A stretch of DNA of 64,000 nt. It comes from an uncultured Bacillota bacterium (GTDB taxonomy: Bacteria; Bacillota_I; Bacilli_A; RFN20; CAG-826). Location: assembly GCA_949289845.1 (NCBI GenBank), contig CASEPN010000001.1:182887-246886 (forward strand), written 5' to 3'. Positions 45,659 through 59,524 of this stretch are shown here, in pieces. Within the stretch, counting starts at the first letter, position 1, and each line of letters starts with the position of its first letter. Made by a program: the position numbers and the translations under genes. The notes beneath the pieces are model-generated. The model made no database searches, was not told where the DNA came from, and was given only the letters and a program-made list of their open reading frames with translations.

Positions 45659-45776
45659 CTCACCGGCCATGCACGAAATTCGTCCGCGGTCTTCGCATGT
45701 GCGCTCTGCCATTCCCATCCTACCGATATTTCTTTATGGGAAAGGGGACTTCCCGCGCTTCTTTCTATGTGTATGA

Positions 45777-45812
45777 TTTAGAGGCAGATGGCAATTGCCA
45801 CCTGTCTCTAAA
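45777..45812. repeat. 36-bp near-palindrome, left copy, before the second DUF4143 ATPase
   Basis: Arms TTTAGAG/CTCTAAA, CAG/CTG and a central TGGCAATTGCCA; only three symmetric position pairs mismatch. It ends four bases before the ATPase ATG. The same core recurs at 47090-47125. Confidence 0.85.
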
Positions 45813-45816
45813 ATCT

Positions 45817-47094
45817 ATGTTCAAAAGAGAGCGTCTCATGGAAGCCCTGCTTTCCAAGCGGGGGAACGGAAGGGCCAAGGTGATCACTGGCCTTAGGAGA
45901 AGCGGGAAGTCCTTTTTGCTGAAGGAACTTTTCATCCCCTATCTCCTACAGGAGGGCGTCCCTGGCGAGAACATCCTCCTTCTGGAGCTGGACGACCTGA
46001 GGAATGCCTCCCTGCGCAACCCTCTGAAGTTGCTCGATAAGGTGCTTTCCTCCATCCCTGCCGAAGGGATGAGCTATGTCTTCGTCGATGAGATCCAGCT
46101 TTGCCAGGAAGTGAGTAACCCCGATGCCGCAGGCGACGTCCTTTCTTTCGTCGATGCGTGCAATAGCCTTCTGAAGCGCCCGGGGGTCGATCTTTATGTC
46201 ACGGGGTCGAATTCCAGGATGCTTTCGAAGGACATCCTCACGCGTTTTCGCGATCGCGGGGACGAGATACGCGTGACCCCGCTGACCATCGGCGAGATCT
46301 TGGAGGAATGCCCGGGATCGCCAGGGGCGCTCTTCAACGAATATCTTGTCTATGGCGGCCTTCCGCGAGTCGCCTTGGAAAAGAGCCTGGAAGGGAAGGC
46401 CATGTACCTATCATCCGTGATTGGCGAGACATACCTGGGGGATATCGTCGAGCGGGCCGGGCTTCCTTCCGAAAAGGGGCTCAAGGACATCGGGCGTCTT
46501 CTTGCCACGACCGCGGGCAGTCTCACGAGCATAGAGAACATCGCGCGGACCCTTGCGGCCGCCTATCAGGAGAAGTTCTATTGGGAAAAGGTTCGGAAGT
46601 TCATCGATCTCTTCCAAAGTTCCTTCCTCATCGAGGAAGTGGGGCGGTATGACCTCATCGGGCGCAGGAACATCGAGGAGCCGCATAAGTTCTACTACGC
46701 GGACAACGGCCTGATGAACGCCTTCGGCGATTTCTCCCATTTCGAAAGGCAGCAGGCGCTGGAATGCGCTGTCTACAACCATCTGAGGGAATCCGGGTAT
46801 TCCGTCGAGGTCGGCGTCGTCCCCCTCAGGAAGATGGAGGGAGGGCGAAGGGAGATGCGCTCCTATGAGGTCGACTTCATCGCGACCAAGTACCTGTCGA
46901 AGTTATACATTCAGGTCGCCTGCTCCATGGGCGATCTCCGAAAGGAAAGGCAGGAAAAGGCATCTCTTTCCGCCATCCGCGACTCAAACGCGAAGGTGAT
47001 CCTTCTGGGAGAGGACATACCGCCCACCCGCGATGAGGAAGGAATTCTCACGGAATCCGTCCTCGATTTCCTGAAGAACGACTGCAGGATTTAG
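45817..47094 (+). CDS. AAA_14/DUF4143 family ATP-binding protein (second copy type)
   Basis: 425 residues from ATG 45817; the frame extends to 45697 but would run through the palindrome. Walker A GLRRSGKS (25-32), Walker B YVFVDEIQ (~90), sensor LYVTGSNS (~130). The C-terminal DUF4143 ends with YEVDFI and, later, YIQVA, a PD-(D/E)XK-like layout with Q for E. Unlike the copy at 1623 it belongs to the ITGLRRSGKS subgroup. The gene is bracketed by two matching 36-bp near-palindromes, the right one containing its stop codon, which suggests a self-contained mobile or autoregulated cassette. Confidence 0.8.
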   Translation: MFKRERLMEALLSKRGNGRAKVITGLRRSGKSFLLKELFIPYLLQEGVPGENILLLELDDLRNASLRNPLKLLDKVLSSIPAEGMSYVFVDEIQLCQEVSNPDAAGDVLSFVDACNSLLKRPGVDLYVTGSNSRMLSKDILTRFRDRGDEIRVTPLTIGEILEECPGSPGALFNEYLVYGGLPRVALEKSLEGKAMYLSSVIGETYLGDIVERAGLPSEKGLKDIGRLLATTAGSLTSIENIARTLAAAYQEKFYWEKVRKFIDLFQSSFLIEEVGRYDLIGRRNIEEPHKFYYADNGLMNAFGDFSHFERQQALECAVYNHLRESGYSVEVGVVPLRKMEGGRREMRSYEVDFIATKYLSKLYIQVACSMGDLRKERQEKASLSAIRDSNAKVILLGEDIPPTRDEEGILTESVLDFLKNDCRI

Positions 47095-48852: not shown

Positions 48853-49035
48853 GGCAATAATCGCCGTTTCTTGGCGATAACTTCGCAGAACTGCCTTCAA
48901 TCCCTGGATATCGTCGTTACAAGAGGAATCCCGCGGTTTTGCTAGGCAACCCTTCTTTTGGGGCATGCTTTATGCGTCTTGTTGGATAGGGAGAATCCTA
49001 TGGAACGGGAGCGACCTTCTTCCTACAATTGCCCT

Positions 49036-50052
49036 ATGGAAGAAAGGCTTCCCACCTACATCGCCCAGTGGACGATGGTCCTCCGGGGCATGCAGGTGGA
49101 CAACACCTACAAGTGCGCTTGGGCTCGCGCGATCCTTTCCTGCCTCGGGAAAGGGAAGTTCGTCACGCTTCCCCCGGACGGTAAGGCGATGCTCCATTTC
49201 TCCGACATCGCGAAGGAGATGGTGAGGCTCTACTGGAACCAGTCCTGCTTCTTCCATCTCCGCCAGGGCCCGGAGAAGAGAGGAATGAAAGGGGTCCGGA
49301 TCGTCAACGCTGTCGAGAGCCTCATCGAAAGCTATTACGCGCTCCTCGGGACCAGGAGGCCCTCCTGGTGGAGCGAGGCGGAGCCTCTCCTCCGGGAGGA
49401 GAAAGGGCTTCTCGGGTCTGCCTTCAAGGAAGTCGAGAAGGTCCTCCCCGAGAACGTCGCCCATCGCTTCCTGAACCTCAGGGGACATGAGGGTCCCCTT
49501 CCCCTCTATGAGTACCGGAGGCCGGAGAAGGCCATCTACTTCGCTTCCTGGCAGGTAGAGATGCTCCTTTCCTACAAGGACCTACTCGAGGACGAGGTGG
49601 ACTTCCGCTGGACGGAGATCCTCGAGAAGTTCAACGGGGCCCCAAGGATCGCGAGCAAGATCATCTCCTCCTCGAACGAGGAGGTGAAAAGGGAAAGCCT
49701 CAAGGACTTCCGGGACGTCATCCAGGGAGCCTATCGGTAGGTGAGGATCCCCGACTTCTACGAGGAAGGCTCCTACGTCCCTCTCGACGACTTCTCCCTC
49801 GACCACGTGATCCCGTGGAGCTACCTCTACTCCGACGACATCTGGAACCTCGTCCCGACGAGGAGGGGAAGGAACTCCGCGAAGGGGGACTCCCTCCCGA
49901 AGGAGGAGGATATCGCCCGCCTCAAGAGGAGGAATCACGAGCTCCTCCCTCGCCTCCAGGTGATGAAGGGGATGGAGAAGTACGCAGGCGCCCTCCTCTT
50001 CGCCGAGGAGAACCATCTCGTCGACCTTTACTACGCGGGGTGCCTCGTGTGA
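49036..50052 (+). pseudogene. HNH endonuclease split by an in-frame TAG
   Basis: From ATG 49036 (TACAAT six bases upstream, no ribosome binding site) the product begins MEERLPTYIAQWTMVLRGM, like the N-terminus of a family of ~340-residue HNH proteins. It runs 234 codons to TAG (49738-49740). The same frame continues as GTG-VRIPDFYEEGSYV and then the HNH core LDHVIPWSYLYSDDIWNLVP (~260-280), to 50052. The whole fits one family-length protein. The zinc cysteines normally before and after the core (CFYC-like and CxxCN) are absent (TRRGRN). Either inactivated, or two separately translated pieces from the GTG at 49741. Confidence 0.6.
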
Positions 50053-50606
50053 GCGATTTCTACGATGAGAACGCGGAGTCCTACGTCAAGGGCACCTTCC
50101 ATCTCGACATGGAGGGGACGAGGAGGAAGTTCCTTTCCTACGTCCCCGAGGGAGGGAGGATTCTCGACCTGGGGTTCGGGTCGGGAAGGGACATGCTCGC
50201 CTTTAGGGACGCTGGCTACCAGGTGGTAGGGATCGACCCCTGCCTTCCTTTCGTCCACATGGCGAGGTCGATGAGGCTCGAGGCCCTTCCCCTCAAGGCG
50301 GAAGACATGGCCTTCCAGGACGAGTTCGACGGCATCTGGGCCTCTGCTTCACTCCTTCATTCGGAGGACCTTCCAGAAGTGCTGGGGAAGTGCCATAAGG
50401 CGCTTAAGGAAAGAGGTGTCCTTTACTGCTCCTTCAAGAAGGGGAGCTTCCGGGGGATGAGGGACGGGAGGTTCTACGTGGACATGGAGCCTGTCTCTTT
50501 GGAGAAGACACTGAAGAGGACTGGGTTCGCACCTCTTTCCATCTGGACGAGCGAGGACAGGACGAGACCCGGGCTTCTTTGGACGAACGGGATCTTCCGG
50601 AAGTAG
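50049..50606 (+). CDS. Class I SAM-dependent methyltransferase
   Basis: 185 residues from GTG 50049, overlapping the HNH stop (GTGTGAGC). Motif I is ILDLGFGSGRD (~38-48), with VVGIDPCLPFVHMA as the acidic strand and IWASASLLH as motif IV. It lacks a DNA-methylase NPPY motif, so a small-molecule or protein substrate is likelier. Translational coupling to the HNH gene suggests a former two-gene unit. Confidence 0.8.
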   Translation: MSDFYDENAESYVKGTFHLDMEGTRRKFLSYVPEGGRILDLGFGSGRDMLAFRDAGYQVVGIDPCLPFVHMARSMRLEALPLKAEDMAFQDEFDGIWASASLLHSEDLPEVLGKCHKALKERGVLYCSFKKGSFRGMRDGRFYVDMEPVSLEKTLKRTGFAPLSIWTSEDRTRPGLLWTNGIFRK

Positions 50607-50666
50607 GACTTCATCGTTTCGTTCCTGAAATTTCTCCGATCAAATGGGCTTTTTAGACCTGCCGGC

Positions 50667-50693
50667 TTGAAAAATCCTGGGGGGGGGTATTCT
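50667..50693 (+). promoter_or_regulatory. Putative phase-variable promoter of the dnd operon (G9 spacer tract)
   Basis: TTGAAA (50667-50672) and TATTCT (50688-50693) are 15 bases apart, and nine consecutive G (50679-50687) fill the spacer. Slippage of the G run would change the spacing toward or away from the optimal 17. The helicase ATG is 40 bases downstream, after GGGGAGGGAAGGCGAGG. Confidence 0.5.
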
Positions 50694-50733
50694 TCGGATG
50701 ATTTAAGACTTTTTCGGGGGAGGGAAGGCGAGG

Positions 50734-52914
50734 ATGGCGGAGACAAACCTTCAGGAAGTCCCGGGCCTCGACTTCGACTACACTAACACCCCGGATACGC
50801 CGATCGCGGACCAGCTTTTCATCCCTTGCCTCCAGGAGTCGATTTTCTTTGAAGCCTTGTTCGGCTTCTTTTCTAGCGAATCCTTGATTGCGATCGCGCC
50901 CGGGCTGGACTCGCTTTTTTCGCATGGCGGGAAGATCCGTCTCGCCATATGCGCGTTCCTGAAGGAAGAGGATGTGGTGGCCATAGAGGAAGCCTACGAA
51001 GAGAAAGTTCGGACTTCTTTCTCCGAAGTCGAGAAACGTCTGTTCCAGGAGCTGAGGAAGGCCGGGGAGGATAGTCCGGATTCGGTCGCTTTGCTTCGCG
51101 ATATGATTGCGGCCAATCGGCTGGAAATCATCGCGGTAGGGCCTTACCAGTCTTCGGGCCTCATGCATGAGAAAACCGGGATTTTCGAAGATTCGTTTGG
51201 GAACTGCGTCCTTTTCAGCGGGAGTTCGAACCTGACTCCTAGCGCGATTACGGATATCCGTGGCTTTTGGAACTACGAAGGGCTGAAGGTTTTCCGTTCC
51301 TGGGTCGGAGGCGAGGATAAGTATTGCTTCAAAGACAAGAGGAAAATTGAGCGGATTTTCGCAGGCGATGACCCATGGCTTCGGCGGAAAGAGATTAGCG
51401 CCATCGTCAAGGATTACATCGATGGGATGCCGGAGGTTACTTCGCGGCGCAAGGGAGCAACGACGTCCTCCGAGAAGTTCTCTCCTAGGATTAAGGAAGA
51501 GCTTGGCCTTGGCGGGCTCTATGACTATCAGCGAATGGCTGTCGACAGGTGGTTCGAAATGGGCTGCCGCGGCTTCTTCATGATGGCCACCGGGACCGGA
51601 AAGACGAGGACCGCATTGGCGGCCGTAAAGGAGTACTGGGAGAAGAAGAGGAACGTCGTCGTCGTGGTCGCTGTCCCTCTTCTTGCGTTGGCCGACCAGT
51701 GGGAAGGGGAAATCGAACGCTGGCTGGGAGTTCATCCGATCGTCTGCAATTCTAAAAATCCTCAGTGGCGCGACGAGGCGCAGAGGGCCTTGTCCGGAAG
51801 GAGGTTCCGCAACAAGGACGCCAGGACGGTTCTGCTCGTCACGTATCACTCCAAGAAGAAACTTGAGGCCTTACTTGGAAACTATCCGAATGAAAAGTGC
51901 CTTCTTCTCGCCGACGAGGCGCATCACATTGATCCTGAATGGCTCGAGCAGGCGAAGTTCTTTGGGCCTTGCATCGGCTTGAGCGCCACGCCTGGGACAG
52001 GAATGCCCTCGGACGAGCTCGGGCCACGGATTATCAGGGACTTCGGGGGTCTTGCCATTTCCTTGTCCCTCGAGGAGGCCCTCGAAAAGGGCGTTCTGGT
52101 GCCATACGACTACCACCCTCTCTTCTGTCATTCGAACGACGAGGAAGAAGGAAAGTTCCGGTATTACACGCAGCTCATCGCGGCGGCGCTTCAGAATCCT
52201 GACCCAAAGAAGAAGGAAGATTGCTCAAGGCTGATCCGCCTGCGTTCGCAGGTCGTCGCAAACTGCAGCGACAAAATTTCGCGGCTGGGCGACTTTATTC
52301 AGTCTGTCGCAAAAGAGGATCGCGATCACTTGATCGTCTACTGCGGAGCGGGGGACATCTATGGGGCAAACTCCGAGGAGGAAGAGCGGTTCATTTCTTT
52401 CGTCCACAAGAAGCTGAAGGAAACGTTGCCGGACATTGTCGTGGCTCCGTTCACCAGCCACGAGGACAAGACCGAGCGTTCCTTGATTTTGAAGGGATTC
52501 CAAGAGGGGACGATCAAGGCCATTACGGCGATTCGCTGCCTTGACGAGGGCATCGACCTCCCCTCAATCCGGGCAGCCTTGATTCTTGCGAGCGGCTCGA
52601 CCCTCCGCGAGTTCGTCCAGCGGAGAGGACGGATTCTTCGTCGTTCCGAAGAGACGGGGAAGGACCATGCGTCCATCTATGACGTGATTTGCCTCCCCCA
52701 AGGCGCTGATGGCCAGGCGCTGGCTCGGTATGAGCTTAGACGTTTCTACGAGTTCGCCCGGAGCGCTAGGAATTGGGAGAAAGGTCTGAAGGACCGCCTG
52801 GAGCATTACTTGAGTCATTACGGGCTCGGGACGATCGAGGAAGCCTTCTTCGGTGAGGAAGACGACTTCGCGATGGAAAAGATTCAGATGGAAGGAGACG
52901 AGGACGATGCCTAG
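50734..52914 (+). CDS. PLD-like nuclease/SF2 helicase fusion, dnd-linked
   Basis: 726 residues. Residues 15-175 look like a phospholipase D-type nuclease domain: HEKTGIFED (His145, Lys147) then SGSSNLT. The rest is an SF2 helicase with Walker A MATGTGKT (~285), DEAH box LLADEAHH (~390), GLSATPG (~417) and motif VI QRRGRILRR (~628). It heads a seven-gene operon ending in dndCDE, and helicase-like restriction proteins have been reported beside dnd genes, so it probably attacks DNA lacking phosphorothioate marks. That role is inferred from context. Base composition is AT-richer than the flanking chromosome. Confidence 0.82.
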   Translation: MAETNLQEVPGLDFDYTNTPDTPIADQLFIPCLQESIFFEALFGFFSSESLIAIAPGLDSLFSHGGKIRLAICAFLKEEDVVAIEEAYEEKVRTSFSEVEKRLFQELRKAGEDSPDSVALLRDMIAANRLEIIAVGPYQSSGLMHEKTGIFEDSFGNCVLFSGSSNLTPSAITDIRGFWNYEGLKVFRSWVGGEDKYCFKDKRKIERIFAGDDPWLRRKEISAIVKDYIDGMPEVTSRRKGATTSSEKFSPRIKEELGLGGLYDYQRMAVDRWFEMGCRGFFMMATGTGKTRTALAAVKEYWEKKRNVVVVVAVPLLALADQWEGEIERWLGVHPIVCNSKNPQWRDEAQRALSGRRFRNKDARTVLLVTYHSKKKLEALLGNYPNEKCLLLADEAHHIDPEWLEQAKFFGPCIGLSATPGTGMPSDELGPRIIRDFGGLAISLSLEEALEKGVLVPYDYHPLFCHSNDEEEGKFRYYTQLIAAALQNPDPKKKEDCSRLIRLRSQVVANCSDKISRLGDFIQSVAKEDRDHLIVYCGAGDIYGANSEEEERFISFVHKKLKETLPDIVVAPFTSHEDKTERSLILKGFQEGTIKAITAIRCLDEGIDLPSIRAALILASGSTLREFVQRRGRILRRSEETGKDHASIYDVICLPQGADGQALARYELRRFYEFARSARNWEKGLKDRLEHYLSHYGLGTIEEAFFGEEDDFAMEKIQMEGDEDDA

Positions 52915-53116
52915 TTACGATGAAGGAACTGTCGTTAGCCAAGCCGCGGCGGCTGAGCTGCGGGCGACTGCCTTGTCGGAAGCCAAGGAGATCCTTGGGG
53001 CTCAGCAGGTCACGCTCAGTATGAAAAAAGCATCCGCCCAGAAGCTTTATCAGCTGGCGATTCAGCTTGCGGAACGCGAGCTGACAAAAGAGGAGGATTC
53101 CGCGAATGCTGATTGA
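52907..53116 (+). CDS. Small helical protein in the dnd operon
   Basis: 69 residues from ATG 52907, overlapping the helicase stop by eight bases and the next gene by eleven. Predicted mostly helical and Ala-rich (AAAAELRATALSEAKEILGA), with a charged C-terminus. No family recognised. Overlap on both sides indicates equal or coupled translation, as for a complex subunit or regulator. Confidence 0.6.
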   Translation: MPSYDEGTVVSQAAAAELRATALSEAKEILGAQQVTLSMKKASAQKLYQLAIQLAERELTKEEDSANAD

Positions 53117-55169
53117 GAAAGTTTGGGCGGAGAACTTCCGGAACTTCCGAAAGTTCGGATCTCGCGATAATCCGATACGGTTCAACACCGGAGGCAAGGT
53201 CAATCTCATTTACGGGAAATCCGGTTTTGGCAAGAGCACCATTCTTCAGTTGCTCCAATGGACTCTCTATGGCCAATGCGATTTTGACGAAGATGACCTA
53301 GTGAACAGCGGGATAAGGTCGAGCGCTTCTGCCGGCGCCGAGATTGCTCTTTTCGGATCGCTTTCGATCTTGGTTGATGGGGTGCGTTATCTCATCGAGC
53401 GTCGATGGGTCTTCTTAAAGCAACCCGGGGGCGGGTTACGTCGGAAGAAGGACAATAAGGATCGCTTCGAAGAGTATTTCACTATCATGCAAGAGTCCCC
53501 GGACGGGAGCAGCAAGCCGATTCAAGGCCGTGATGGGAAAGAAGGTCGAGAGTTTATCGACCGAATCATGCCGCAAGGGCTTGCCGGCTATTTCTTTTTC
53601 GACGGGGAGCAATTTATCGACCGGTTCGAAGACACGAAAAATGCGAATGGGAAGAGGCTGAAGGAGGCAATCGGGACGTTGTTCCAGACGGATGTCTATA
53701 ACGTCGCGAGGGAACTTCTTGCCGGACCTGCGTGGTCATCCTCGGGCATATTGGACAAGAGCCTCAGACAAACGCCGAGCTCCGGTTCCAAGGAATTGGA
53801 AGAAGCTCGCGAAGAGATGGAAGAAGCTAGGAAATCCTTCGACATGGCGAGAAAGATGAGCGAATGGCGGAGCCAAGAGGCAAATTCGGAACAAAAGGAG
53901 ATGCTGGAGCTTACGGAAGCTCTTAAGAACATACCGAACCCGGAAGACCTGAAGAAGCAGATCAACGACTTGGAGAAAGAAGAGAAGTCCTTGCGGAAGC
54001 AATATGATGACCTTCTCCATAAGATCGCCGCCTCCGCGCGCTCGCATTTCATATCCTTTGCCGTCGCCAAAAGTTCCGTCGATGCCACAAGAATGAAGCC
54101 GGATGAGATTGGCGATCAGGAGGTTCCGCCCTCCTTGTCGAAAGAACTCATCAAGAGCCTGGAAGAAAGAGGGGAGTGCATCTGCGGCCACCATATCGGC
54201 AATCTGGAGAGAGGGCATTTGGAGCGTTGGCTCGCCGCGCTTCCCCCGGCATCCTATCGGCCGACATATGAGTCCTACCTCGAGCGCAAGAGCCTGATTG
54301 TAGAACGGGAACTAGGGCAGGGATTCCGTGACTTGCATAGCCTTGTCGAAGAGCTTGTCGCAAAAGAGGAAAGAATTAACGATATAGCGAATAGGCTGAA
54401 GGAAGCCTGGGAACGCCAGCGCGAGGTTTTTGACGCCGAGGCAGAGCACAAATGGGAAAGGTTTGGTGTGCTTCAGAGGAAAGTTAAGAAGACCGCTGAT
54501 TCCCTTCGGGACTTATCCAAGGAGGCCGAGCAAAAGAGAAGGGCTTCGGATGTGGCCAAAAGGAGATTCGACGAAGCGCTGAGACGAGCAAATGTCGCCA
54601 AAAAGGAACGCTATGCGCTGGCGCTTTCCAATGAGGTGGCCGAGCTTTTTGAATCGCTTGCCGCGGATCGCACGCGAAACGTTCGGTTGGACCTTCAGAG
54701 GGCCATCGAGGAGTATCTCAACAAGATTCTTGTAGGGGCCGTCAAGACCGCTGAGCTGGATGACAATTTCAAGCTTACGATTCGGGAAGGGGACATTACT
54801 TATAAGTCCAGGGGCCAGGCTGCCGTCGCTTGCTACAGCTATGTCCTCGGGATCCTTTCCGTCCTAAGGAACTTCAGGGACCGCCATGAAGACGACATCC
54901 TGGATCTTTCCGACGAATATCCCCTTGTCATCGATGCTCCCTTCAGCGAGACGGATCCAGAGCAGACCTTGCATGCCCTTTCCTACTTCAGGGAGATTCC
55001 GAAACAGATTGTTCTCATGTCGAACCGCGACCTGAACGACATGGTAGCGAAAGATGATGTGGGGACCATCTATGTCATCAAGGGCGTAGGGGTAGACGCC
55101 TTCATCGAGGAATGCTCTTACGAGGATGTGGATCGCTACTTTGCCGAGGGTGGCGAGAAGGAGGACTAG
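53106..55169 (+). CDS. SMC/Rad50-like ATPase (DndD-like, restriction-side copy)
   Basis: 687 residues. Walker A is GKSGFGKST (37-45), then the family mark YFFFDGEQFIDRF (~160), a long coiled coil with a hook-like Cys-x-Cys (Cys358 and Cys360 in GECICGHH), a degenerate signature (KSRGQAAVACYSYVLGI) and Walker B YPLVIDAPF. The FFDGE motif is shared with DndD in the same operon, but overall sequence is quite different. It likely assembles with the helicase and small proteins as a DNA-scanning or cleaving complex. Confidence 0.8.
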   Translation: MLIEKVWAENFRNFRKFGSRDNPIRFNTGGKVNLIYGKSGFGKSTILQLLQWTLYGQCDFDEDDLVNSGIRSSASAGAEIALFGSLSILVDGVRYLIERRWVFLKQPGGGLRRKKDNKDRFEEYFTIMQESPDGSSKPIQGRDGKEGREFIDRIMPQGLAGYFFFDGEQFIDRFEDTKNANGKRLKEAIGTLFQTDVYNVARELLAGPAWSSSGILDKSLRQTPSSGSKELEEAREEMEEARKSFDMARKMSEWRSQEANSEQKEMLELTEALKNIPNPEDLKKQINDLEKEEKSLRKQYDDLLHKIAASARSHFISFAVAKSSVDATRMKPDEIGDQEVPPSLSKELIKSLEERGECICGHHIGNLERGHLERWLAALPPASYRPTYESYLERKSLIVERELGQGFRDLHSLVEELVAKEERINDIANRLKEAWERQREVFDAEAEHKWERFGVLQRKVKKTADSLRDLSKEAEQKRRASDVAKRRFDEALRRANVAKKERYALALSNEVAELFESLAADRTRNVRLDLQRAIEEYLNKILVGAVKTAELDDNFKLTIREGDITYKSRGQAAVACYSYVLGILSVLRNFRDRHEDDILDLSDEYPLVIDAPFSETDPEQTLHALSYFREIPKQIVLMSNRDLNDMVAKDDVGTIYVIKGVGVDAFIEECSYEDVDRYFAEGGEKED

Positions 55170-55694
55170 ATGAACAACAGCCAGCCAATTTCAAGTTCGA
55201 TCGTCCTTTATGGCGCTCCTTGGCTAGAGGCTAGGGAGAAGTTTTGCCAAAACAGAGGGAACGGCATCCTCTTTGAGACTGCCGCCGAGCTCTTCATCTT
55301 TTGCTCGGCGATAGGGGTGCGAATCGGCTCTCCGACCGAACAATTTCCATCAGATGAGGAAAACCCGCAAGGCGTCGAGGTTCCTTATACGGTTCTCGAG
55401 CGGCCCAAGAACAAGGATTTTCTCAGCGACCTCTACGCGACGGTCTTGTTTAACCGTTGGATCGAGCCTGAACTGACTGACATTCAGAGACTTGAGGTTA
55501 TTTTCGAAAAGGGGGCGCCTTCCGACCGCCACAAGATTCTTGAACCCTATGCGCGAACAGGGGTCCTCCACCTCCTTGAATGCACGAAGGACTTCGCCAA
55601 GGACTGGCCGCTCATCGAGCGGGTCTGGTCGAATCTCGCGGACCTTTATGGCGAGCCCCGCATCCTTGAAGGGGAAGGTTCTTCCGAGGAGTAG
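55170..55694 (+). CDS. Dnd-associated protein, resembling 'dnd system-associated protein 4'
   Basis: 174 residues starting directly after the SMC-like stop; Phe-rich helical segment LFETAAELFIFCSAIGVRIG then a Tyr/Phe-rich core. From memory this pattern (an F-x-A-x-x-LG-type helix followed by a polar loop) fits small proteins named as dnd-associated. Two bases separate it from dndC. Function unknown; likely part of the restriction module. Confidence 0.5.
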   Translation: MNNSQPISSSIVLYGAPWLEAREKFCQNRGNGILFETAAELFIFCSAIGVRIGSPTEQFPSDEENPQGVEVPYTVLERPKNKDFLSDLYATVLFNRWIEPELTDIQRLEVIFEKGAPSDRHKILEPYARTGVLHLLECTKDFAKDWPLIERVWSNLADLYGEPRILEGEGSSEE

Positions 55695-55696
55695 CG

Positions 55697-57070
55697 ATGG
55701 CCGGGGATAGCCGCCTTTCGGTCTTTTCGTCCGTCCTTGAGGACATGGAGAGGGTCTACCTCCATGACCGGAGGCCTTGGATGATCGGCTATAGCGGGGG
55801 CAAGGACTCCTCTCTTTTGACGATGCTCGCCTTCGAGATGCTCGAGAGGATTCCCAAGGAAAAGCGTTGGAAGCCCATATACGTGGTCTCCAGCGATACG
55901 CGCCTGGAGAACCCGGTCGTCTCCCTCTACATGCATGCGTCCAACCGGAAGATCGGACGTTACGCCCATGAAAACAATCTCCCGGTCATCTCGGAAATCA
56001 TCTATCCCAAGGACGAAGAGACGTTCTGGACCCTCGTGATCGGAAAGGGCTATCCGACCCCGGAGCCCCCGGGGTTCCGCTGGTGCACCGAGCGCCTGAA
56101 GATCAATCCGATGAACCGCTTCGTCGACGGGATCATCCAGGAGCATGGCGAAGTCGTCATCCTCCTGGGAGTCCGCAAGGGCGAGTCCGGGACGAGGAAG
56201 AGGAGCATCGAGTCCCGCGAGATCGAGGGGCGGCTTCTCCAGCATCACGAGACCCTCCCCAAGGCGTGGGTCTTCAACCCTCTCGCGGAGGTGCCCAACG
56301 AGTTCGTCTGGCCCTATCTCCTGAAAGGGGATGGAATCGCTCCCTGGGGAACCGACCTCAAGAAGCTTTACGCGATGTACCGCGGCAGCGACCTTTCCGA
56401 GGAGCAGTCCGTCATCGGTCAGGTCGATATCTCGAAGATGCCGGTCACGGGGAACAGTCGTTTCGGGTGCTGGTGCTGCACCATCGTGAAAGAAGACAAG
56501 TCCCTCGCGAACTTCATCGCGAAGGGCTCGAACGAACTCGCCCCTCTGAGGGATTTCCGGAACTGGCTTGTTTCGATTCGGCAGGATCCCGCCTACCGGG
56601 AGAAGCATCGGGCGAACGGGAAGGTCTACAGGAAATCGGACGGGGAAGTCGGGCTTGGTCCTTTCACCCTGGACGCGAGGGAGGAGATCCTCCGCAGGCT
56701 TCTTGCCCTTCAAAAGCGGACCGGCTTCTCGCTCATCTCGGAAGGAGAGCTCCGCCTCATCGATCGCGCCTGGGAGGACGAGGGGGATTTGTCGCGCCGG
56801 CGTCTTGTGGATGCCTACCGGGACGTCATGGGGAAGAAGCTTCCATGGGACGAGGAGAAGCGCGCCCTGATGGACGAGGATTTCCTCAGGGAGCTTGAGG
56901 ATTTGTGCGATAGGAACGGCCTTCCGTTCGAGGCCATCGGGAAGGTCCTCATGGCGGTCGAGAAAGGGAGGGTCGGGAAGACCAGGGATGCCCTCCGCAA
57001 GTCTGCGAAGAGAATTCTTTCCCAAGAGTATCTCCATCAGGACGCGCTGAGGGAGGGGGAGGAAGCATGA
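55697..57070 (+). CDS. dndC: DNA phosphorothioation sulfurtransferase DndC
   Basis: 457 residues, family length. PP-loop YSGGKDS (32-38) in a PAPS-reductase-like fold, WCTERLKI (~132), and a cysteine cluster FGCWCCT (~255), which with other Cys should hold the 4Fe-4S cluster. DndC activates the DNA phosphate with ATP and passes on sulfur supplied by a cysteine desulfurase. No dndA desulfurase is in the operon, so a chromosomal IscS/NifS may serve. Confidence 0.93.
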   Translation: MAGDSRLSVFSSVLEDMERVYLHDRRPWMIGYSGGKDSSLLTMLAFEMLERIPKEKRWKPIYVVSSDTRLENPVVSLYMHASNRKIGRYAHENNLPVISEIIYPKDEETFWTLVIGKGYPTPEPPGFRWCTERLKINPMNRFVDGIIQEHGEVVILLGVRKGESGTRKRSIESREIEGRLLQHHETLPKAWVFNPLAEVPNEFVWPYLLKGDGIAPWGTDLKKLYAMYRGSDLSEEQSVIGQVDISKMPVTGNSRFGCWCCTIVKEDKSLANFIAKGSNELAPLRDFRNWLVSIRQDPAYREKHRANGKVYRKSDGEVGLGPFTLDAREEILRRLLALQKRTGFSLISEGELRLIDRAWEDEGDLSRRRLVDAYRDVMGKKLPWDEEKRALMDEDFLRELEDLCDRNGLPFEAIGKVLMAVEKGRVGKTRDALRKSAKRILSQEYLHQDALREGEEA

Positions 57071-59163
57071 AGATTCTCGCCGCGGAAATCGAAAACTTCG
57101 GCCCCTACGTCGGGCGCACCCGCTTCGACCTTTCTCCCGAAGGGACCATCCGCAGGATTGTGCTCCTGGGAGGGAAGAACGGAGCGGGCAAGACGACGTT
57201 CTTCGAGTCGCTCCGGCTTGCCCTTTACGGTCCGAAGGCGTTCGGCCTTGCCGTCAGGAACGCCAAGTACGGCAAGAAAGTCGCCTCCCTCGTCAACAAG
57301 CGGGTGCTCCGGGAAGGAAAGGCGCGGGCATCCGTCGCCGTTTCCCTTCGGCTTGAGGACGGGAACCATGAGAACGGATCCTATCGACTCGATCGTTCCT
57401 GGGAAATCGAGGGCAAGGACGTCAGGGAAACCCTCAAGGTGTCCTTCAAGCCGGATAACGGGGACGAGAGGTTCCTTGGCAGGGAAGAGGAACAGGACTT
57501 CGAGATGACGCTCGAGTCTCTCTTGCCTTTGTCTCTCTTCCCGTTCTATTTCTTCGACGGGGAGAAACTCACGGATTTCTTCCTAGACGGCAAGGGCTTC
57601 CGCGAGACCTTGATCGCGATGACAGGGATGGAGAGCCTCGATATCCTCGTATCGATCCTTGGCGATCTTGCGAAGAAGGAGGGGAGGGCGAAGGACGCCG
57701 GAAGGCGGTTCGAAAAGGCGGAGAAGACTTATCTTTCCCTTAAATCGAAATGCGATGCCCTTCGCTCGGAACGGGATGCCCTTAAAGAGGAAATCGAGAA
57801 AAAGGAAGAGGATTTCCAGGAATTTCAGAAGGAATTCCTTCGAAAAGGAGGCCTTTCCGCGAAGGCAAGGCGCGCCCTTGAGAAAGAAATCGAGCACGAG
57901 ACGGAAGAAAGGGAGAGGAAGCGCGTGGAGCTTAAGGCCTTTGCGAACACGCATCTCCCTATCCTCATCATGGAAAGGCAGGTGCGGAAGGCGCTTGAGG
58001 GGGCCGATTCCTCCCGTTCCGCCTTCCTTGTCCGGGAGATCAAGAAGGCAGCGGAGGAGCGAGGAGTCCTCCCGCTTCTTTCCGAGCAGCTTGGGCCACA
58101 AGGCCTCGACGGGCTCCTTAGGTCCATCTTCGGGGAGGAGGCGCTCAAGGGGGAAGGCGCAGGCTTCTACCGCCCCTCGCCGGAAGAACTTTCTCGCATT
58201 CATGAGCAATTGGAGGAGGCTACGTCCGCCGACCTTGGCTATTTCAAGGCGATCGAGGAAGACATCTATGGCTCCATGTCGATGCAGCGGGGGATACGGG
58301 AAAAACTAAAAGGAGTATCCGAGGAGGGGGAGAAGGCGCTTGAGAAAGAACGGAAGGAACTGGAGAAGTTCCGCTTCTCTGTTCTGAGGAAGATCAGGGA
58401 GAGAGAAGATTCCCTGGAGGCGCTCCTTCCTGATTTCCTTAGGGCGGAGGCTGAATATCGCTCTGCTTTGAAGGAACGGGACGACCGGCTGAGGGAAGAG
58501 TCCGCGCACAGCCTTGCCGCGAAGGCGCACCTTGTCCTCGCGGAGTTCGAGCGCCATCTTTTCGCAAAGCAGGTGGATCGGCTGAAGGACTCCTTCCTCT
58601 CCATCTTTTCTTCGATCATCAACAAGGACGGCCTTGTCGACGGGCTTGAAGTCGATTCCATGCTTCGCGTCTACCCCGTGCTTTCGGAACAGGTTAGCTT
58701 GGGGGAGATGGTCCATCTCCGCGAGGAGCTGGGAGAAAGCGAATTCGAAGAACGATACGGGGAGGCTGCCCTTTCCATGACCTATCTCGAGACGGATGAA
58801 GAACAGGTCCGGATGCCTCTCAAGGTAAGTGGGATGTCCGCCGGGGAGAGGCAGGTGTATCTATTCGCCCTCTATGGGGCGCTTGCCACGATCGCCGACC
58901 ACCGGATGCCCTTCCTCATCGATTTCCCGTTCGGCCGGGTCGACACCGTCCACCGCATGGGCATGGTGGACCATTTCTTCCTTTCCCTTCCCGGGCAGGT
59001 CGTCATCCTTTCGACGGACGAGGAGGTGCAAGGGGCGCTTCTGGAGGAGATGGACCCCTTCATCGCGAGGTCCTACACGATCGAGAGCAAGGGGGACGGG
59101 ACGAGCCGCGTGCTCGAAGGCGTCTATTTCGGGAAGGAGGTTCCCCATGGGAAACAGGCTTAG
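57067..59163 (+). CDS. dndD: DNA sulfur modification ATPase DndD
   Basis: 698 residues; overlaps dndC by four bases. Walker A GGKNGAGKTT (35-44), FYFFDGEKLTDFF (~160), a long coiled coil, signature MSAGERQVYLFALYGAL and Walker B MPFLIDFPFGRVD. DndD is the SMC-like ATPase of the modification complex, thought to open or nick DNA for sulfur insertion. No hook cysteines were seen in its coil, in contrast to the copy at 53106. Confidence 0.92.
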   Translation: MKILAAEIENFGPYVGRTRFDLSPEGTIRRIVLLGGKNGAGKTTFFESLRLALYGPKAFGLAVRNAKYGKKVASLVNKRVLREGKARASVAVSLRLEDGNHENGSYRLDRSWEIEGKDVRETLKVSFKPDNGDERFLGREEEQDFEMTLESLLPLSLFPFYFFDGEKLTDFFLDGKGFRETLIAMTGMESLDILVSILGDLAKKEGRAKDAGRRFEKAEKTYLSLKSKCDALRSERDALKEEIEKKEEDFQEFQKEFLRKGGLSAKARRALEKEIEHETEERERKRVELKAFANTHLPILIMERQVRKALEGADSSRSAFLVREIKKAAEERGVLPLLSEQLGPQGLDGLLRSIFGEEALKGEGAGFYRPSPEELSRIHEQLEEATSADLGYFKAIEEDIYGSMSMQRGIREKLKGVSEEGEKALEKERKELEKFRFSVLRKIREREDSLEALLPDFLRAEAEYRSALKERDDRLREESAHSLAAKAHLVLAEFERHLFAKQVDRLKDSFLSIFSSIINKDGLVDGLEVDSMLRVYPVLSEQVSLGEMVHLREELGESEFEERYGEAALSMTYLETDEEQVRMPLKVSGMSAGERQVYLFALYGALATIADHRMPFLIDFPFGRVDTVHRMGMVDHFFLSLPGQVVILSTDEEVQGALLEEMDPFIARSYTIESKGDGTSRVLEGVYFGKEVPHGKQA

Positions 59164-59524
59164 GACGTCCCTCCATACGAAGAAGGTGTTCGACGAAGTG
59201 AAGAACATCAGCCGCCTCCAGCCCTTCGCCCTTTCCAAGATCGCCCTTGCCCTGTCCCTTCGCATGGAAACCCCGTTGTCGGAAGAGGATTTCAATACCG
59301 ATAACGACGGGCTCGAGCTTTCCCGGGAAACCGTATGCGGGCCGTACGACTCCCTCTTCTCCATGGTTGTGTGCGAGGACGCCGGGAAGGCAATCGCGGA
59401 CTCAGAAATCTTCTCCACCTATTTCAAGGCCCACATCGACCGGGGCGCGAAAGAACTGGAGAAGGAGTTCCGTTACGACAAGAGGCTTTTCCGTCGCCTC
59501 ATCGGCCTGAAGGATTCGATCTAG
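59147..59524 (+). CDS. dndE: DNA sulfur modification protein DndE
   Basis: 125 residues from ATG 59147, preceded by GGAAGGAGG and overlapping dndD by 17 bases. The pattern RLQPFALSKIALALSLRMET, NDGLELSRETVCG and FKAHIDRGAKELEKEF is that of DndE, a small DNA-binding tetrameric subunit. It closes the operon; a weak hairpin without a T run lies 10-45 bases downstream. Confidence 0.88.
   Translation: MGNRLRTSLHTKKVFDEVKNISRLQPFALSKIALALSLRMETPLSEEDFNTDNDGLELSRETVCGPYDSLFSMVVCEDAGKAIADSEIFSTYFKAHIDRGAKELEKEFRYDKRLFRRLIGLKDSI

Follow-up and report, generated by a model that had tools for sequence, protein, structure and literature searches.

What partner accompanies dndC, dndD and dndE when they follow, in one operon, four genes that are not dndF, dndG or dndH? 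The question is raised by a seven-gene operon in the window, the 64,000-nucleotide stretch of DNA from an uncultured Bacillota bacterium analysed here (source genome of 1.30 Mb, 98% complete, in 4 contigs). A sequence-only reading had proposed a distinct complex reading sulfur marks. In this study, we report that the window system is a bacterial copy of the known Dnd-PbeABCD kind, named and genetically tested in 2019 in Haloterrigena jeotgali A29 (Xiong et al., PMC6459918); the probability that the seven genes as a whole would constitute a Dnd-PbeABCD antiphage system is put at about 0.93, judged from their sequences. The proposed complex thus turned out to be PbeABCD, while the other part of the proposal held, in that the mark is probably used for discrimination between self and non-self.

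The operon occupies positions 50734-59524 of the window and consists of seven co-directional genes, almost without gaps, as determined from the ORF listing and by reading (Table 1). The pbeA/pbeB and pbeB/pbeC junctions overlap by 8 and 11 bp, pbeC and pbeD abut, pbeD and dndC are separated by 2 bp, and dndC/dndD and dndD/dndE overlap by 4 and 17 bp. ORFs, junctions and family matches agreed in confirming an overlapping operon that includes dndC, dndD and dndE, in which four translationally linked genes upstream of dndC make up a partner other than DndFGH. Active-site motifs (HKD, SF2 helicase, Walker A, CxC hook and PP-loop) were intact. A promoter and terminator scan was uninformative, returning 3 promoter-like sites against 2.1 expected and none upstream of pbeA. 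The proposed HMM search of the seven proteins matched PADLOC models for five (PbeA, PbeC, DndC, DndD and DndE; E 2e-158 to 5e-10), with no match for PbeB and a weak result for PbeD.

Table 1. Features of the window operon in the order pbeA-pbeB-pbeC-pbeD-dndC-dndD-dndE, its HNH neighbour and the Ssp-Pbe loci
Feature	Position	Strand	Length	Description
pbeA	50734-52914	+	726 aa	SF2 helicase with a PLD/HKD nuclease-like domain at its N-terminus
pbeB	52907-53116	+	69 aa	small, fast-evolving; no family; placed by position, size and homologues
pbeC	53106-55169	+	687 aa	CxC-type ABC-ATPase, DndD sister
pbeD	55170-55694	+	174 aa	TIGR04062-like ('DNA phosphorothioation-associated protein 4'), weak match; proposed DndE cognate
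dndC	55697-57070	+	457 aa	PAPS-reductase-like PP-loop sulfurtransferase
dndD	57067-59163	+	698 aa	ABC-ATPase of the modification complex
dndE	59147-59524	+	125 aa	DNA-binding subunit of the modification complex
HNH_4 (Cas9-type HNH) gene	48958-50052	+		HNH_4 E=2e-8; neighbour, outside the system
Ssp-Pbe locus in class	L024 2284-14349
Further Ssp-Pbe loci in class	L058, L055, L026, L061, L057, L059, L060, L023, L054
Ssp-Pbe locus on Rhizobium plasmid	L076 7285-18344

The first gene, read earlier as a PLD-helicase fusion, is indeed one. Its product matched PADLOC PbeA (E=2e-158), Pfam ResIII (6e-19) and Helicase_C (1e-9), and, below the cut-off of that model, NCBIfam TIGR04095 (dnd_restrict_1, the helicase part of PbeA; E=2e-94). 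The Pfam match of the PLD-like domain was sub-threshold (E=0.0085), with the HKD residues conserved. Alignment of seven homologues (A1) revealed a single invariant HKD signature (H145, K147, D153, G163-S164-x-N166) and invariant SF2 helicase residues (GTGKT, DE-H, QRRGR-LR), so that the PLD/HKD, ResIII and helicase C parts expected of a PbeA are all present. No PbeA relative was found in viral contigs with a single-sequence query. The very small gene expected between pbeA and pbeC is also in place, recognised by position, size and congener homologues only: PbeB found no family in PADLOC, Pfam or NCBIfam, and its homologues in the related loci L002 and L028 share 67% and 33% identity.

The third protein had been called an SMC-like ATPase. 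It is instead a CxC ABC-ATPase that matched PADLOC PbeC (E=6e-55), Pfam AAA_23 (twice over cut-off) and, below cut-off, the DndD model TIGR03185 (E=7e-14). Walker A (GKSGFGKST) is kept, and a C-x-C-G hook motif (ECICGHH in the window) is common to all aligned PbeC and absent from DndD. A PbeC profile that included DndD matched Rad50/SMC-type ATPases in the PDB. An SMC protein is defined by a hinge domain and a coiled coil of 800-1000 residues (PMC10853773); the SMC label was rejected since PbeC measures 687 aa overall and has the CICG hook in their place. The same correction of an earlier 'SMC' label was made by Rakesh et al. in 2024, who re-surveyed the system and re-annotated PbeC as a CxC ABC-ATPase (PMC10853773).

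The description of the fourth product as a small dnd-associated protein was borne out by its position and its homologues, and less so by the window copy itself, which matched TIGR04062 weakly (E=0.049). The gene sits right after pbeC, the position of pbeD in Dnd-Pbe systems; 11 of 17 aligned positional homologues matched TIGR04062 (best 2.2e-49), and plasmid annotations from Ruegeria, Pontibrevibacter and Rhizobium place a 'DNA phosphorothioation-associated protein 4' directly after a PbeC-type ATPase. The proposed DndE-like nature of PbeD was not reproduced in a profile comparison with DndE (probability 3%), a PDB profile search found no PbeD relative, and an AlphaFold model built from two sequences was not usable (pLDDT 45).

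The modification genes dndC, dndD and dndE lie adjacent to this module. DndC exceeded the cut-off of TIGR03183 (E=1e-111; 374 bits against 290) and that of Pfam PAPS_reduct, matched PADLOC DndC (6e-123), and keeps an SGGKDS motif and a GCWCC cysteine cluster. DndD exceeded that of TIGR03185 (E=1e-93; 315 bits against 246) and matched PADLOC DndD (9e-99). DndE was over the cut-off of Pfam PF08870 (E=2.5e-18), below that of NCBIfam TIGR03184, and matched PADLOC (5e-10); its profile (A4) matched the solved DndE chains 7x4e (5.7e-18), 5wtu and 4lrv.

The reported absence of dndA, dndB and dndFGH was upheld at the locus, where none of these genes and no desulfurase in the operon was found. DndB was also without a match in the whole source genome; a genome-wide search for DndFGH with TIGR03237 alone gave nothing, in a search in which no control matched either. 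The source genome encodes SufS within a suf cluster and, beside thiI, a NifS/IscS-type desulfurase whose best NCBIfam model is DndA (TIGR03235, E=1e-77, 262 bits, below the 480-bit equivalog cut-off). As IscS can replace DndA (PMC9239217, PMC11662687) and dndA can be encoded elsewhere in a genome, its lack at the locus is neither defining nor decisive. We infer that a chromosomal desulfurase feeds DndC, the best candidate being the DndA/IscS-like enzyme beside thiI.

Comparison with DndCDEA-PbeABCD of H. jeotgali A29 indicated the same Pbe set, likewise ordered A-B-C-D internally and agreeing in domains and sizes (in the archaeon a PbeA with PLD, ResIII and helicase domains, a PbeB of 66 aa, an AAA_23 PbeC and a PbeD of 152 aa; PMC6459918), and DndC, DndD and DndE in both. 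However, pbeABCD follows dndCDEA in the archaeon, whereas in the window it lies upstream of dndCDE and is translationally linked to it; the window locus also lacks dndA, and its host is an uncultured Bacillota with a 1.3-Mb genome. The systems anchored by a CxC ABC-ATPase (Rakesh 2024, PMC10853773) share the HKD-SF2 helicase, the small protein, the CxC ATPase and the proposed DndE cognate; that class also has methylase-linked forms, whereas the modification partner in the window is DndCDE. With DndABCDE-DndFGH the window shares the DndCDE modification module, but its effector is unrelated. SspABCD-SspE and SspABCD-SspFGH are likewise PT-based, and relatives of the window locus combine PbeABCD with genes of Ssp type. 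No ssp genes are present in the window; a genome search for DUF4007 gave no match, and no control matched either. The suggestion of an under-described subtype accordingly fails for the partner, which was described in 2019 and 2024 (PMC6459918, PMC10853773), and may survive for the upstream position of pbeABCD.

The identical seven-gene order was found in two congeners, G018 (locus L002) and G022 (L028), with protein identities of 33-97%. In a third relative, G169 (L065), dndB is inserted before dndC among the pbe and dnd genes and no pbeB was detected. No desulfurase was detected near these three loci. The window and these three relatives form supported groups in the PbeA (96/92) and PbeC (100/99) trees; a contig search of genomes returned only one close relative, L002. 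Between the window and G018, dN/dS was 0.04-0.19 across all seven genes, indicating purifying selection on both halves of the operon. The arrangement is therefore not due to chance, given an order kept in two congeners and coding sequence under such selection.

The two halves differ in their divergence from G018. Values of dS (NG86) were 0.12-0.51 for flanking genes and 0.18-0.39 for dndC, dndD and dndE, against 0.55 for pbeD, 1.1 for pbeB and 1.6 for pbeA and pbeC, where estimates are saturated. Nucleotide identity drops at about 50.5 kb and returns at about 55.05 kb, which makes pbeA-pbeC (window 50500-55050) a divergent mosaic block between conserved dndCDE and flanks. The simplest reading of this single genome pair is that pbeA-pbeC would have been replaced by recombination in one lineage, in agreement with the poor co-evolution of DndCD with PbeAC reported earlier (rho 0.107; PMC6459918).

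The genomic context of PbeA was surveyed in 395 genomes of the class, drawn evenly, of which 22 had a match at E<=1e-60; this threshold was chosen because at E<=0.001 generic helicases match in every genome. DndC and DndD accompanied PbeA in 6 of the 22 (the window, G018, G022, G110, G136, G169). SspB, SspC and an SspD-like PAPS reductase were nearby in nine (G012, G067, G129, G281, G338, G352, G370, G409, G436), a methylase-like gene in four (G141, G282, G330, G359) and no detected partner in two (G265, G345); G255 was left out. Beyond the 22, G094 is a tenth Ssp case and G049 a further Dnd case. In G533 of the same class, a PbeA/PbeC locus (L069) adjoins a methylase-like gene, and its PbeA match reads through six TGA codons, which this genome probably reads as Trp. 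As the loci were collected with one PbeA model, the proportions describe the sample and not all PbeA. PbeABCD thus often occurs without dndCDE, an outcome that the sequence-only reading had named as counting against its proposal: this holds for PbeA-PbeC in most loci surveyed here and for 58% of 553 published PbeAC pairs, which had no dndCD within 10 kb (PMC6459918).

In eight of the nine Ssp-linked genomes a desulfurase also lies directly upstream of pbeA; the exception is G129, where the pbe genes come first and no desulfurase was detected. SspB, SspC and SspA were assigned by PADLOC in L024 and L058, and SspB and SspC also in L026; the remaining loci were assigned by phmmer similarity to these three, in which the PAPS reductase is closer to BrxP of type-4 BREX (E 1e-77 to 1e-85) than to SspD (about 1e-11). 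No SspE, SspFGH, BrxL or PglZ was found among the part of the flanking ORFs scanned. On a Rhizobium indigoferae plasmid (NZ_CP140639.1), pbeB-C-D-A is convergent to genes for a PAPS reductase, an SspC-like ATPase, DUF4007 and a cysteine desulfurase. The ten Ssp-linked sequences of the class form one clade of the PbeA tree (100/99) with the Rhizobium copy elsewhere, so the Ssp label needs two changes on that tree. In the parts of the open-access literature available, no paper described an Ssp-Pbe pairing, and those naming both Ssp and Pbe treated them as separate systems.

Taken by itself, the window is mostly a record of a known system, found here in a small Bacillota genome with the operon order reversed relative to the archaeal prototype. 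The placement of pbeABCD ahead of dndCDE within a single operon, which a small supported clade shows, may be a new arrangement, and the Ssp-Pbe pairing may be even more so. What stays of interest is that PbeABCD also pairs promiscuously with Ssp-type writers and seems to recombine independently of dndCDE, and the comparison to the Ssp-Pbe relatives matters more than the window itself. Dnd writers make double-strand PT with an ABC-ATPase, Ssp writers single-strand PT with an AAA+ ATPase. If one effector serves both, it must respond to the mark, or to some consequence that both kinds of mark share, rather than to the Dnd proteins, and swapping writers would then offer a test of the contested Pbe mechanism (block of replication, or cleavage). 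On balance, we favour the combined view that PbeABCD is an exchangeable effector cassette reading the marks of different writers, that Ssp-PbeABCD is an undescribed PT-based defence pairing, and that, within this genus, the effector half of the Dnd-Pbe operon recombines apart from the modification half.

In the window system, DndC, DndD and DndE would receive sulfur from a cysteine desulfurase encoded elsewhere on the chromosome and place phosphorothioate marks at a short motif of host DNA. PbeC with PbeD would scan DNA, PbeA, an SF2 translocase with an HKD nuclease-like domain, would act as effector, and PbeB may be a small partner or regulator. By analogy, unmarked phage DNA would be halted at replication and marked DNA spared. 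This presumed division of labour follows H. jeotgali A29. There, full protection (about 10^4-fold) requires every one of the four pbe genes, pbeA only in part; virus carrying PT marks escapes; cells deficient in PT lack protection yet stay healthy; and replication of the virus is blocked, with no cleavage visible (PMC6459918). The archaeal effector works only if host DNA itself carries the mark (PMC6459918). PT-dependence and replication block are drawn from this one archaeal system, and the Dnd-Pbe reading has its limits in a PbeB without family, a weakly matched PbeD and a locus that does not encode DndA.

Alternatively, PbeABCD could be a plug-in effector that reads modification status generally, with the Dnd pairing incidental and the operon a restriction system in which the HKD domain of PbeA cuts unmarked DNA. 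The varied partners in the survey, SspBCD-type genes, methylases or none, are consistent with this, as are the mosaic replacement of pbeA-pbeC beside conserved dndCDE and the invariant HKD and GSxN residues; Rakesh et al. took the conserved HKD nuclease as an argument that cleavage has to play a part (PMC10853773), and its conservation in the window leaves room for cleavage by PbeA. However, Xiong et al. saw neither cleavage of viral DNA nor toxic effects of pbeABCD in the absence of PT, and a PT-dead DndA mutant lost protection (PMC6459918). We therefore hold this alternative to be possible but somewhat doubtful.

An abortive infection mechanism, in which the infected cell is killed or arrested and PbeB acts as a negative regulator until a phage trigger releases it, is unlikely. 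A negative-regulator role of the small protein was proposed by Rakesh et al. (PMC10853773), and no protein of the operon changes faster than PbeB (67% identical to its G018 counterpart, where DndCDE are 96-97% identical), but deletion of archaeal pbeB abolished protection and caused no toxicity (PMC6459918). That the operon is a decayed, non-functional remnant without dndA is very improbable: it has no desulfurase and the neighbouring HNH gene carries a stop, but all seven frames are intact, both halves are under purifying selection and the chromosome encodes a DndA-like desulfurase. An undescribed restriction complex unrelated to PbeABCD, to which PbeB and PbeD without a named family over cut-off might point, is refuted to near certainty by the family matches of PbeA and PbeC, by the order and sizes of the genes and by the PbeD homologues that reach TIGR04062.

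The HNH_4 gene upstream is split by an in-frame TAG at 49738-49740. Its homologue in G018 (L002:8230-9324) is intact and has CGG at this position; a conserved stop was rejected on account of this arginine codon, and the window copy is simply interrupted. An intact 343-aa copy lies beside pbeA in G022. Relatives that lack PbeA (G026, G060, G072) have homologues too, so the gene is not an obligate part of the system. Between it and pbeA lies an ORF (50049-50606) that by eye resembles a class I SAM methyltransferase, homologues of which also flank pbeA in G018 and G022. About 4 kb upstream of the operon, an AAA_14/DUF4143 ATPase (45697-47094) matches the PADLOC candidate PDC-S01 (E=3e-87). Elsewhere in the source genome (L030 8085-10676; G000:C1, about 603.1-605.7 kb), a second PLD-helicase gene of 863 aa, perhaps part of another defence island, combines a PbeA-like N-terminus with an SNF2 helicase that resembles DpdE/ZorD/DrmD.
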